This document shows positions 17,143 through 22,070 of a DNA stretch of 64,000 bases, piece after piece. The translations under genes and the position numbers were made by a program. This stretch comes from Echinicola arenosa (GTDB lineage Bacteria; Bacteroidota; Bacteroidia; Cytophagales; Cyclobacteriaceae), in the NCBI RefSeq assembly GCF_014841125.1, contig NZ_JACYTQ010000002.1, positions 992,001 through 1,056,000 of the forward strand. Reading direction: 5' to 3'. Position 1 is the stretch's first letter; every line of letters starts with the position of its first letter. The notes beneath the pieces were generated by a model. It was not told where the DNA came from. It saw nothing but the letters and a program-made list of their open reading frames with translations, and ran no database searches.

Positions 17143-19458
17143 TTAAGAAGCCCATTTCTGGAAAAGCTGTCCAAGAATATTAACTGTTTCTTTGGAGGCA
17201 AGATTAGGCTTCAGCGCTGTATCGGATATTCCGGAAACAACCCTCGAAATATTGTGGTCTACTTCACCTTTTTTTGCCCAAGTGGTGGATTTGGCAGCGG
17301 TGAGGTAAACGGAAAAATTATGATGCCCTGAACCAGGTCTTTCCCCGATAATGTGCAAAATACTCTTGCAGGTATCATCTTGCTCACCAAATAGCACTTC
17401 ACCACAGGCATATCCTGCCCGCACCCGACCATGGCGGATCACGATATTTTGATCTGCAACCTGATAACCATTAGCGGTTAAGTCTTGCTTGAGTTGTTTC
17501 AAAAAAGCATCCAGATGTCCCTGATCCATTAAGGCTCTTGCATTGAGCCCATCAGAAATAACAATCTGCACATTGGGTACATTTTTATCCCATGAAGATT
17601 TCAAAGCGCCCAGCTGCGATAAAGCCTTCTTACTTAATTCTTCGCCGGACTCAGGATGATATACATAATCCTTTCGGTCTTTGGAAAGGGTGATAATTGG
17701 TATGGCAGCAGGAATTCCCTTTACAAAGCTGTCTGGCATCTCGGTCCACAAACTGACTTTGGCATCTTCATATAAACTGACGACTTGATTGGCCAGTTGT
17801 GGCTCTAACTCCCAAATATTTTCTCCATAACCTTCGGCAATGGGAACTCCCCTTTCGCGTATGGCTACAATCGTCCTTTTTCCATCCGCAAAGATCTCTT
17901 CACGACTTCTCAAATCTCCTTTGGCCAAACAATACTGATAATATACCCAAACGGGATCCCCAAAATGTACTGTGGGTTGATTATCGGAACCAATCACGCC
18001 AATGCGTTTAAAGAAATCCCACATCGCATCATTTACCTTATAGCCAAACTTCTCCCTGACCCGAACATGATCACTAAATGAAGTGGTTAAATAGCTAAGC
18101 ATGGGATCATTTTTTGTAGGCAAAGCCATCAAATAGGCAGGATTGGCCGGCATAATCTCATCAATACACCATTCTAGATCTTCTAGATCCACATCCATAT
18201 GCAAAGTGGAACACACATCCAAACCAATGCACAGCCCATGCAGTTTCCCCATCAATGTATCCTCCAAACAACAGCGTACCAGTTGTTCCTTCGATTTAAA
18301 AACTTCCGGACCGATAAACCCTGCCACATCATTCACATGTACCCAAGGCTGCTGCTCAGCTGTTTTTCCTTCACCCAATTTTTCTTTTAATGCCCTTACA
18401 AAACCGTATTTTCTGGATTCATGGAGCACCATATCGAAGCCTTTCCCATGACCATTGGTAAAATCTGCCCCTTGTCCCGTTTCTGCATACAGCCCATATC
18501 GGCCATCTCTCTTGGACATATGCTCCAGCATCTTATCGATGGTCACATCAAAAGTGCGGTTGGCATCATCCGTCCCCGCCAGACTTTGAAACCAAATGCC
18601 GGTGGTGCCGGGTTGTTGTTCTTCCACTTCGGCTTGTACATCGATATGAGAAAGCACGCAATTGGACATGGTATGCTCCAAACCAAAAGTGACCAATATA
18701 TCAAATAAAGCCTTTTCGATCTTGGCTACAGAATCTACCTCACTGGAAACAGGGTTTGTCCCCAGCACCAAATCTCCCACACCATAGGACCAAGCATCAA
18801 AAACCTGCCAAATAATATCTTCAGGATTATCGGTTGGAGAATTGGGTTGAACACGGGCACTCATATAACCTTTACTCCCAATCTTGCTATTTGGAAGGGG
18901 ATTGAAAATTTTCTGGCTTGCCTGTATCAGTTCTTCATTATTCATCAATTTCACCACACAGCCAATAACATCACTGGTCAACCCTGTCATGATGGCTTTA
19001 ATATCCTCTTCATTGGCCGTAAGTAAAAATTCCTTCAGATCACCCAATGTCCAATCCTCCAAGGATTGCTTTTGACCCTCTTCAGTAGTTTCCAAAATCA
19101 AATTGTAAAGTTCATCTTGGTAGATACTATGGGCATTGATATCCTGAAGTCGTGTATTGGCCAAGAGCTGTCGGGCATGTTTTCTACTGTCCTCATCTTT
19201 GGCCGCAATGCCCAAAGTAAGATCACCTTCTTTGAACTCATTGGCAGCTCCGATCAGTTTTAGATAAAGATCAAGGTCAAAATTTCCTTTTTTTCGAATG
19301 ATATAGCCCAAAAGGTCCTCTTCACTTTTGGGGGGTGAAACCTTTACAGAAAGGGGTGAAATTTTAGTATTGTCCGAAGCAAAAGCATCCATGCCTCCAA
19401 AAATCAAAATGGATGAACTTAACATTCCCGATCTTTTCAAAAACTCTTTTCTAGTCAT
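17143..19458 (-). CDS. eutBC: Ethanolamine ammonia-lyase, EutB-EutC fusion with Tat-like signal
   Basis: Adenosylcobalamin-dependent enzyme converting ethanolamine to acetaldehyde and ammonia, here with both subunits in one 771-aa chain. Residues 1-28 look like a Tat signal (TRKEFLKRSG, then a hydrophobic stretch and AFA). The EutB part covers about 55-510: SARVQPN (Arg202, Gln204), GTNPV (Asn235), ETGQG (Glu326) and GLDVC (Asp414) correspond, from motif context, to E. coli substrate residues Arg160, Gln162, Asn193, Glu287 and Asp362. The EutC part covers about 580-765 with ISDGLNARA and IIGERPG; the N-terminal helical part of EutC seems mostly missing. No eutA, adenosyltransferase or microcompartment gene is nearby. 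Export is inferred from the signal only. Confidence 0.9.
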   Translation of the reverse strand: MTRKEFLKRSGMLSSSILIFGGMDAFASDNTKISPLSVKVSPPKSEEDLLGYIIRKKGNFDLDLYLKLIGAANEFKEGDLTLGIAAKDEDSRKHARQLLANTRLQDINAHSIYQDELYNLILETTEEGQKQSLEDWTLGDLKEFLLTANEEDIKAIMTGLTSDVIGCVVKLMNNEELIQASQKIFNPLPNSKIGSKGYMSARVQPNSPTDNPEDIIWQVFDAWSYGVGDLVLGTNPVSSEVDSVAKIEKALFDILVTFGLEHTMSNCVLSHIDVQAEVEEQQPGTTGIWFQSLAGTDDANRTFDVTIDKMLEHMSKRDGRYGLYAETGQGADFTNGHGKGFDMVLHESRKYGFVRALKEKLGEGKTAEQQPWVHVNDVAGFIGPEVFKSKEQLVRCCLEDTLMGKLHGLCIGLDVCSTLHMDVDLEDLEWCIDEIMPANPAYLMALPTKNDPMLSYLTTSFSDHVRVREKFGYKVNDAMWDFFKRIGVIGSDNQPTVHFGDPVWVYYQYCLAKGDLRSREEIFADGKRTIVAIRERGVPIAEGYGENIWELEPQLANQVVSLYEDAKVSLWTEMPDSFVKGIPAAIPIITLSKDRKDYVYHPESGEELSKKALSQLGALKSSWDKNVPNVQIVISDGLNARALMDQGHLDAFLKQLKQDLTANGYQVADQNIVIRHGRVRAGYACGEVLFGEQDDTCKSILHIIGERPGSGHHNFSVYLTAAKSTTWAKKGEVDHNISRVVSGISDTALKPNLASKETVNILGQLFQKWAS

Positions 19459-19628: not shown

Positions 19629-20615
19629 TTACAATAAAAATCCGTTTTCATCCTTTATGGCTGATGGAATATCAATGTCATCAATCATCTCTCTAAGGTC
19701 AATTTCTATTCCGCGGGAAATAGAAGTAATCGGTACATCATTATAGGTTCCTTCAAAAGGATTTTCAGAGTAATCCCCTATTTTTTCCATCAAGAAGAAA
19801 ACCCAAATCAATAACCCTGAGATAAAAGGTCCAGCCCAATAAATCCAAGATTCACTCTGATTGAAGACATTGAGCAATCCAAAAGGTACAAAGGCGCAAA
19901 AAACAAATGTGAGCCAAACCGCAGTAGAAGCATATTGTCGGGGAAATGGGAAATTTTTGATCCTTTCAGACTTTCCCTGATCTTCATAAAAGCTTCTCAA
20001 CAAATGGTGGAACTCCATGTGTCTAAAATCTTCAAAATAATTTAAATCTTTTAACTGCTGAAGTCTTTCTGCCTGAATAAGCATTATCTGGGTGGCTGTA
20101 TTGGTTTTTCCTTGCACCCTGTCCATTTCCGCTTTTGAAATATATTTGGAGAGCTCTGATTCCAGCTTATCCGTATAATCTTCACAAACTGTGGGAGCAT
20201 AAAGTTCATTCAACCGCTGCCGTTGATGCTCCCATTCTTTGCTCAGGCGAAGCTGATGTCTCAAAGCAACCAACCAAGCAATATGTCGATAGATTAATTC
20301 TTTTTTTATTTTTTCATCACCTTCTCCTTGCACAAAAGCAACAGCCGCTGCACCAAAAGTCCTACTATTATTGACGATGCTGCCCCAGATTTTTCTTGCT
20401 TCCCAAGTTCTATCATAAGAACTGTTGTTTTTAAAACCTAAATAAAAAGCCACGGCTATACCAATAATGCTGATAGGCTGCCAAGGAATGGCAATATCCA
20501 CTTGCAGAAAATAAAAAAGTACGTAAATGACCATCGAATAGATAAATCCTAAGATAAATGGCTTTTTGGACCAGTTGAAGGTCATCCAAAAGCTATAGTT
20601 CCTTTTTATATACAT
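19629..20615 (-). CDS. Bestrophin family ion channel
   Basis: Inner-membrane anion-channel-like protein of 328 aa of the bestrophin (UPF0187) family. The start MYIKRNYSFWMTFNW is typical. The first membrane pair is around PFILGFIYSMVIYVLFYFL, followed by the conserved segment GFKNNSSYDRTWEARKIWGS with the family's YDR-W-ARK-WG pattern and NSRTFG. A second membrane pair lies near WLTFVFCAFVPFGLLNVF. The C-terminal PFEGTYNDVPITSISRGIEIDLREM matches the family's DVP-xx-xxR-xIExDLxxM ending. Bacterial bestrophins form pentameric chloride or cation channels; the physiological role is usually unknown. It lies upstream of the eutBC fusion on the same strand, 170 bp away. Confidence 0.92.
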   Translation of the reverse strand: MYIKRNYSFWMTFNWSKKPFILGFIYSMVIYVLFYFLQVDIAIPWQPISIIGIAVAFYLGFKNNSSYDRTWEARKIWGSIVNNSRTFGAAAVAFVQGEGDEKIKKELIYRHIAWLVALRHQLRLSKEWEHQRQRLNELYAPTVCEDYTDKLESELSKYISKAEMDRVQGKTNTATQIMLIQAERLQQLKDLNYFEDFRHMEFHHLLRSFYEDQGKSERIKNFPFPRQYASTAVWLTFVFCAFVPFGLLNVFNQSESWIYWAGPFISGLLIWVFFLMEKIGDYSENPFEGTYNDVPITSISRGIEIDLREMIDDIDIPSAIKDENGFLL

Positions 20616-20770: not shown

Positions 20771-21931
20771 CTAATAAGCCATTTCCACGATTTTCTCTAC
20801 ATCCTCAGGATTCAGGTCTTTATGTTCACCAAGACCTAGCCAACCTCTTTCCGAGAACCGACTAGCTATCTCTTTTGCTGTATTTTCATAATCAGAAACA
20901 TATGCGGAGAGTTTGGTATCAATACCTAAAGACTGAAAGAATTCATCAGTTTTGGTGATACCTACCTTGGCTTTTTCTTCCAATGTTCCTTCTGTGATGC
21001 CCCAAACCCGCTCCGCATATTGGGCTAATTTCTCTTTTTTCCGCTCAAACCCATACTTATAGTGACTAGATGCCAAGATGGCCAAAGTCCTTGCATGGTC
21101 AATGCCATACAAGGCGGTCAATTCATGCCCCATTGCATGGATGGCCCAATCAGTAGGTACTCCTTTTTGAATCAATCCGTTTAAGGCCATGGTACAGCAC
21201 CACATAAAGTTAGAAGCCGCTTCATAATCATTTGGATCTTTCATCACTCTAGGTGCCACTTCTATCAAAGTTTGCATGATTCCCTCTGCAAATCTGTCCT
21301 GCAAATACGCTCCTGCAGGATAGGTCATGTACTGCTCCAAAACATGTGTGAAAGCATCTGTAAGACCATTGGCAATTTGTCTTTCCGGAAGTGACTTTAT
21401 CACACTTGGATCAAGAATGGAAAACTGTGGGAAAAGACCAGGGCCCCCCATACTCAGTTTTTCTTTGGTTTCTTTATTGGAAATCACCGAACCGGAATTG
21501 GATTCCGAACCTGTTGCCGGAATGGTCAATACGGTACCAAATGGCAAACCTTTTTCAGTTCTAATTTTACTAGCCAAAATATCCCAAGGCTCATTTCCAT
21601 CATACAAAGCAGCTGAGCTTAAAAACTTGGTCGCATCTATCACTGACCCTCCTCCTACGGCCAGCATAAAAGTGATTCTTTCTTTCTTGATCAGCTCCAA
21701 TGCGGGCAACAGTCCATGATATTCTGGATTGGCAGGAATGCCTCCAAATTCAACTACCTCAAAACCTTTCAAGGCCTCCAAGACACTTTGGTAAATACCA
21801 TTCTTTTTGATACTTCCTCCTCCATAGGTCATTAAAACCTTTGCTCCTTCTGGAATTTCACCAGACAGCTTGTTGATTTGGTCCTTTCCAAAAATGACTT
21901 TCGTTGGATTTTTAAATTCAAAATTCTGCAT
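20771..21931 (-). CDS. Iron-containing alcohol dehydrogenase (YqhD/BDH-like)
   Basis: NAD(P)H-dependent group III alcohol dehydrogenase of 386 aa from ATG 21931 (MQNFEFKNPTKVIFG); a TTG five codons upstream is less likely. The nucleotide-binding domain shows MTYGGGSIKKNGIY and AVGGGSVIDATKF. Metal-binding residues sit in the C-terminal helical domain: DAFTHVLEQY, WAIHAMGHELTALYGIDHA with the two histidines of the family. This subgroup reduces butyraldehyde and other short aldehydes. Proximity to ethanolamine ammonia-lyase, which makes acetaldehyde, is suggestive, but the bestrophin gene and separate terminators lie between, so the link is inference. Confidence 0.92.
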   Translation of the reverse strand: MQNFEFKNPTKVIFGKDQINKLSGEIPEGAKVLMTYGGGSIKKNGIYQSVLEALKGFEVVEFGGIPANPEYHGLLPALELIKKERITFMLAVGGGSVIDATKFLSSAALYDGNEPWDILASKIRTEKGLPFGTVLTIPATGSESNSGSVISNKETKEKLSMGGPGLFPQFSILDPSVIKSLPERQIANGLTDAFTHVLEQYMTYPAGAYLQDRFAEGIMQTLIEVAPRVMKDPNDYEAASNFMWCCTMALNGLIQKGVPTDWAIHAMGHELTALYGIDHARTLAILASSHYKYGFERKKEKLAQYAERVWGITEGTLEEKAKVGITKTDEFFQSLGIDTKLSAYVSDYENTAKEIASRFSERGWLGLGEHKDLNPEDVEKIVEMAY

Positions 21932-22070
21932 TTCTGTTGCTTTCAATTATATGATAACTTGATCTTGATACATGATCATAATAGTCCTTTTAGAACAAAA
22001 GACATGATAGATAGTTCAATTAATTTGCATACCTCAAAGCAGATTGGCTTTCCAAAATAGAGATGCAAAA

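Follow-up and report, generated by a model that had tools for sequence, protein, structure and literature searches.

A probable single-chain EutB-EutC ethanolamine ammonia-lyase with a predicted export signal in Echinicola arenosa and its relatives

The window, i.e., the whole stretch of 64,000 nucleotides of Echinicola arenosa DNA analyzed here, carries a gene in which the EutB and EutC parts of ethanolamine ammonia-lyase form one chain behind a predicted export signal, and comparison with its relatives makes it probable that the product is at once exported to the periplasm and active as an adenosylcobalamin (AdoCbl)-dependent ethanolamine ammonia-lyase. The periplasmic location, which an earlier note on this DNA had inferred, is very likely, since relatives in several phyla keep export tags, which suggests work outside the inner membrane. 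Ethanolamine ammonia-lyase normally consists of two parts and stays in the cell interior, and to our knowledge the well-studied AdoCbl radical enzymes are all cytoplasmic or mitochondrial. No account of an exported (periplasmic or Tat-dependent) ethanolamine ammonia-lyase was found in the literature searched for it, which was available partly as listings and passages.

The fused protein and its active site

The fused gene, defined by its open reading frame, by Pfam and NCBIfam matches and by an AlphaFold2 model, spans exactly positions 17143-19458 of the minus strand and encodes 771 aa from an ATG start codon. Pfam EutB (PF06751, 1.7e-140) matched residues 67-496 (17971..19260, minus), which form the EutB catalytic barrel, and Pfam EutC (PF05985, 5.7e-31, 108 bits against a gathering threshold of 25.8) matched residues 543-770 (17149..17832, minus), so that the gap between the two matches, residues 497-542 (17833..17970, minus), is left as a linker. 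This frame and these two matches bear out the earlier reading of EutB and EutC in one 771-aa chain, and the usual two separate subunits are replaced here by a single frame, which is also the only EutB match in the 5.39-Mb genome. The NCBIfam EutB model (NF011649) scored 609 bits, above its cut-off of 554, and the NCBIfam EutC equivalog scored 73.5 bits for the EutC part, under its cut-off of 230. The AlphaFold2 model, built from an alignment of 61 family members, reached a pLDDT of 88.9 and a pTM of 0.88, and in a Foldseek search it matched E. coli EutB (3abo_A) with a TM of 0.89 and EutC chains with a TM of 0.71-0.75, both by target length.

The active site was analyzed by alignment with E. 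coli EutB from MG1655, in whose numbering R160, Q162, N193, E287, F329 and D362 are the residues that we take to bind the substrate. All six were unchanged in the 61 fused rows of a first alignment (61/61) and in the 88 fused rows of a second one (88/88). The 20 classical-type rows likewise kept R160, Q162, N193, E287 and F329 (20/20), and D362 too, except for an A in the planctomycetal rows L166 and L167. The EutC part of the fused family retains the VISDGL, GRV and GERPG stretches. Position E257, which is T in 58/61 rows, was considered as a family-wide change and dropped, because it varies among classical enzymes too.

A protein with this active site could still be exported and have a different role in vivo, either with some other small amino alcohol as its substrate or as a periplasmic binder of cobalamin or ethanolamine. 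The sequence is about 33% identical to that of E. coli EutB (144/436), the branch to the classical enzymes is long and the EutC part stays under its equivalog cut-off, all of which would suit such a role; against it stand the substrate residues, unchanged in every row of the larger alignment, and a predicted barrel that matches EutB. The fusion itself is already known: two fused EutBC genes, EutBC1 and EutBC2 (Pcar_0491 and Pcar_0467), were described in Pelobacter carbinolicus, where the fusion was termed unusual (PMC3543383, 2012). In the available passages of that paper, the strains grow on ethanolamine, the genome has no eutA, and the only ethanolamine ammonia-lyases named are the two fused copies, which further argues against a non-lyase role (PMC3543383). 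We therefore consider this alternative very unlikely, and the fused family is, judging by its sequences, very probably an ethanolamine ammonia-lyase by activity.

Export signals and distribution of the fused family

The protein begins with MTRKEFLKRSGMLSSSILIFGGMDAFA/SDN, i.e., an RKxFL motif, a hydrophobic core without charges and an AxA. Together with the signals of relatives and the low pLDDT of this region, this predicts a Tat-type signal peptide at residues 1-27 (19378..19458, minus), with the twin-basic motif RKEFL at residues 3-7 (19438..19452, minus) and a signal-peptidase-like site, AFA, at residues 25-27 (19378..19386, minus), after which cleavage is expected. The core has a mean hydropathy of 1.65, and the twin-basic pair reads RK instead of RR. 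Upstream of the ATG the frame is closed by a stop after only five codons, so that no earlier start exists. In the AlphaFold2 model residues 1-34 have a pLDDT below 50, as would be expected of a cleaved signal. Tat calls were obtained in 0.4% of shuffled N-termini, and with the script applied alike to both sets, in 34/745 neighboring ORFs versus 62/80 fused EutBC ORFs. The Tat-like signal claimed from the letters alone thus stands out above both the shuffled and the neighboring-ORF rates. TatC was found with 215 bits in the window genome, the only genome searched for it.

A contig scan yielded 209 relatives, and the 80 best of them make up the related loci used here; these lie in Bacteroidota, Balneolota, Planctomycetota, Thermodesulfobacteriota, Rhizobiaceae, Acidobacteriota, an Aminicenantes MAG and Archangium. 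The window gene belongs to this deep family of fused EutBC proteins. The search for other fused and signal-bearing copies, proposed in the earlier note, recovered them in Bacteroidota, Planctomycetota, Myxococcota, rhizobia, Acidobacteriota and Thermodesulfobacteriota, and where that note had raised the case of homologues in which a start further downstream would take the signal away, relatives in several phyla were seen to keep it. Among 81 loci (the best 80 of 209 and the window), 67 carry Tat-type signals, 6 single-arginine Tat-like signals and 5 Sec-type signals, and 3 carry none, one of these being cut by a contig end; a lipobox is present in 22/67 of the Tat-type loci.

The wider set comprised 171 fused copies, all distinct and scoring over 1000 bits, which were best-scoring or hand-picked rather than randomly drawn, and an export signal was found in 143/171 of them, 139 by script and 4, of Sec type, by eye. 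The script assigned 113 Tat, 9 single-arginine and 17 Sec signals and called 32 copies 'none', four of the latter being Desulfuromonadales with plain Sec signals by eye. Four other script calls, Tat or single-arginine, in Desulfuromonadales copies were rejected, these signals being of Sec type by eye; one of the nine single-arginine copies is such a Desulfuromonadales copy. The script mistyped the signals of this order because untranslated upstream codons were included. Also rejected was a Tat call in the stretch upstream of a classical EutB (L082), in which the motif sits before the likely start.

In whole genomes scored with the fused-family model, fused enzymes exceed 1000 bits and classical ones stay below about 290, the exceptions being genes that are split or cut and a single fused lineage without a signal, which scores near 550 bits. 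The phylum of the window has an EutB of any kind in 13/395 genomes and a fused-length frame in two of them, the window genome included, and in this survey the fused status of G191 was judged by frame length and score only. Full-length fused EutBC is present in 24/390 genomes of the window's taxonomic family, in 8 of the 11 genomes listed of its genus, in 12/294 of the phylum of a planctomycete and in 13/136 of the order to which a Pelobacter MAG belongs. No genome among the 390 of the window's family has the fused and the classical form together, as judged from the best two candidates of each. Genome searches in this family, in the phylum of Archangium and in that of the planctomycete scored the best 2-5 candidates per genome, so that a further, more distant lyase may have escaped them.

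Full-length copies were then read by eye. In the window's family, 24/24 copies above 1250 bits, the window's included, begin with a signal, the motif being R[RK] in 21 and RN in 3, and in the order of the Pelobacter MAG 22/22 copies, from 13 of 136 genomes, have Sec-type signals. Sec-type signals occur in Desulfobacterales and Desulfuromonadales, and Tat signals in the Rhizobiaceae that lie near them in the tree, on which exported versus non-exported needs five changes. As far as signals can be typed from sequence, the kind of signal (Tat, Tat lipoprotein or Sec) varies while export is kept across phyla, and the fused family relies on other export routes besides Tat.

Signal-less copies are unevenly spread. 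Among the 171 copies, the script found no signal in 23/49 myxococcotal and 2/11 planctomycetal ones. Two full-length fused copies occur together in 14 genomes of the Archangium phylum, and of the 11 pairs for which both N-termini were read, 10 combine a Tat lipoprotein with a signal-less copy and 1 combines two Tat copies. The myxobacterial copy L118, which groups with the Tat-lipoprotein copy L098 and whose N-terminus resembles that of L122, is signal-less, which looks like a recent loss. In the window's family a signal-less fused lineage comprises 5 copies of about 710 aa near 550 bits. It falls on the fused side of the trees, in which the classical-type enzymes form a single clade with a support of 100; the depth of the branch between the two sides is uncertain because the branches are long and the tree program warns of this.

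Signal-less relatives such as these, from Myxococcota and from a single lineage within the window's family, bear on the reading that the fused lyase is cytoplasmic and starts with a relic of a signal or with a look-alike that has no function. The RK motif of the window, weaker than RR, and the single-arginine motif, all that the script found in 9/171 copies, would fit this reading as well. A relic would decay, yet the signal is kept in all the full-length window-family copies read, and three kinds of signal preserve the same topology across several phyla. A cytoplasmic fused lyase is thus unlikely, and export of the fused protein is predicted with high confidence.

Some further copies were seen beside the main family. 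Two planctomycetal sequences, L166 and L167, run a classical-type EutB and EutC together in signal-less frames of 734 and 798 aa, apparently an independent fusion, and the A at D362 that they share perhaps implies another reaction. Weak EutB and EutC matches with a shared open-frame length of 609-747 aa (G956:C54, G952:C6, G983:C94 and G953:C10) are perhaps yet another fused lineage. On the megaplasmid of Sinorhizobium meliloti BL225C there is a fused copy (L261:5791-8193), absent from the plasmid gene table, whose RR Tat signal is clear, and in the plasmid copy of Ensifer canadensis (L263:5941-8336) the match is spread over two frames, so that this gene is probably broken.

Gene neighbors, permeases and cofactor supply

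On the same strand as EutBC (minus), the window carries a bestrophin-like channel at 19629..20615, recognized by Pfam and with a counterpart in 1/80 related loci, and an iron-containing alcohol/aldehyde dehydrogenase at 20771..21946, whose best NCBIfam match, PRK15138, is below cut-off. The dehydrogenase has a counterpart in 2/80 related loci, both from Echinicola, and its link to acetaldehyde is a guess. When the ORFs from the 80 related loci were clustered, no gene turned out to be a regular neighbor of fused EutBC, and the neighbors inspected by eye, among them agmatine deiminase, CysS and PurH as recognized from sequence, were unrelated. In a tblastn search with twelve proteins of the E. 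coli eut operon, EutA, H, E, N, M, D, T, Q, P, S and J gave no match at 1e-4 in the window and the 80 loci, and EutG gave a weak match in the window and 2/80 loci. The earlier remark that no reactivase or shell genes lie nearby holds for these twelve queries.

When loci were searched with bacteroidotal and E. coli permeases, an ethanolamine permease gene was found within 1.5 kb of 7/11 classical bacteroidotal EutB loci, with TIGR00908 over cut-off in 4/4 tested, versus none (Eat or EutH) adjoining fused-family EutBC in the 80 loci, 55 of which span at least 12 kb (Fisher p 4e-8, a value for which related rows count as independent and one phylum is set against several). In the signal-less fused lineage of the window's family, EutH adjoins 5/5 copies, one EutH being cut by a contig end, and in the locus read it lies 2 bp before the fused gene (PF04346, 488 bits). 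That EutH stands beside the signal-less lineage and beside none of the 80 loci of the signal-bearing family is a further point against a cytoplasmic location of the latter. Signal-less fused EutBC directly behind EutH was seen at L254:8396-11637 and in L249-L253, all under a single genus code within the window's family. No Eat or EutH was found beside the signal-less myxobacterial copies, whose flanks are mostly of about 1.5 kb and in four cases of about 9 kb, and only 1/9 classical planctomycetal EutB loci (L162) has a permease, so the rule of permease presence does not hold everywhere.

Cofactor supply was analyzed in 43 genomes behind related loci, from a subset of 46 of the 80 loci, in which PduO and EutA were searched for. 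The window genome has a PduO-type cobalamin adenosyltransferase, and CobA was not found in it. PduO is present in 38/43 genomes, a plain count without a background rate, and the five genomes without it are those with Sec signals, all of which have CobA (5/5). In one genome of the order of the Pelobacter MAG, two fused copies, both of Sec type, lie 26 kb apart with no further match, and the cluster that holds them also has CobA, CbiD, CobS and a riboswitch for cobalamin; the window copy stands alone. Since a Sec-exported chain crosses the membrane unfolded, loading of the cofactor before export cannot be general. Sec-signal EutBC is flanked by two further features (L208:13402-14250 and L207:4851-5675), namely a probable membrane protein with multiple spans and an SBP_bac_6 solute-binding protein; the membrane protein had no Pfam match and, in the one of two tried, no NCBIfam match.

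The proposed check of eutA and B12 genes elsewhere in the genome thus yielded the adenosyltransferase, and for EutA a short match below the family cut-off and none over it. Across the 43 genomes, EutA matches were obtained in 40, over the cut-off in 32 and at full length in 3; the matches outside these 3 genomes are short, and most of them were taken for FtsA-like actin folds rather than true EutA. ATP-driven reactivation would not be available to an enzyme in the periplasm, so that the absence of EutA fits the location and does not prove it.

Proposed mechanism and known systems

In the mechanism we favor, the one-chain AdoCbl-dependent ethanolamine ammonia-lyase would cross the inner membrane by the Tat route, probably as a folded chain loaded with its cofactor beforehand, and the signal would be trimmed after AFA to leave the enzyme at work in the periplasm. 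Ethanolamine that has passed the outer membrane would be split there into acetaldehyde and ammonia, which might then enter the cell or leave. With ethanolamine split in the periplasm, no inner-membrane permease, ATP-driven reactivase or microcompartment would be needed. A more tentative proposal, to which we give somewhat less than even weight, is that the periplasm serves as an alternative to the microcompartment, an AdoCbl radical enzyme there keeping acetaldehyde from the cytoplasm without ATP-driven reactivation, and that the Sec branch acquires AdoCbl outside the cytoplasm, which would imply an extracytoplasmic pool of intact coenzyme. If the enzyme is exported, AdoCbl would be usable outside the inner membrane and in the Sec branch also acquired there, ethanolamine would be usable without permease, reactivase or microcompartment, and the suicide inactivation of ethanolamine ammonia-lyase would have another solution. 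The presence of members in several phyla, among them the one on the Sinorhizobium meliloti megaplasmid, makes this testable in a tractable host.

The window protein shares with the E. coli (3abo) and Listeria (2qez) EutBC the EutB barrel, the EutC domain, the substrate residues and the fold, and differs from them in its single chain, its export signal and the lack of any permease, reactivase or shell gene found adjoining it. The microcompartment eut operons and the short Eat-EutBC operons carry out the same conversion of ethanolamine into acetaldehyde and ammonia, but, unlike the proposed window enzyme, they are cytoplasmic systems with a permease, EutH or Eat, and the long eut operons further differ from the window locus in having EutA and shell proteins. 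Reductive dehalogenases are corrinoid enzymes that carry a Tat signal and work outside the inner membrane, and in this they resemble the state proposed for the window protein; unlike what is proposed for the window enzyme, their corrinoid is a redox cofactor and not the source of a 5'-deoxyadenosyl radical. The window protein also resembles EutBC1 and EutBC2 of Pelobacter carbinolicus, in which, according to the available passages, a large and a small subunit are likewise fused and eutA is likewise missing; the mentions of signal peptides in those passages concern cytochromes, geopilins and a reference, and none concerns EutBC (PMC3543383).
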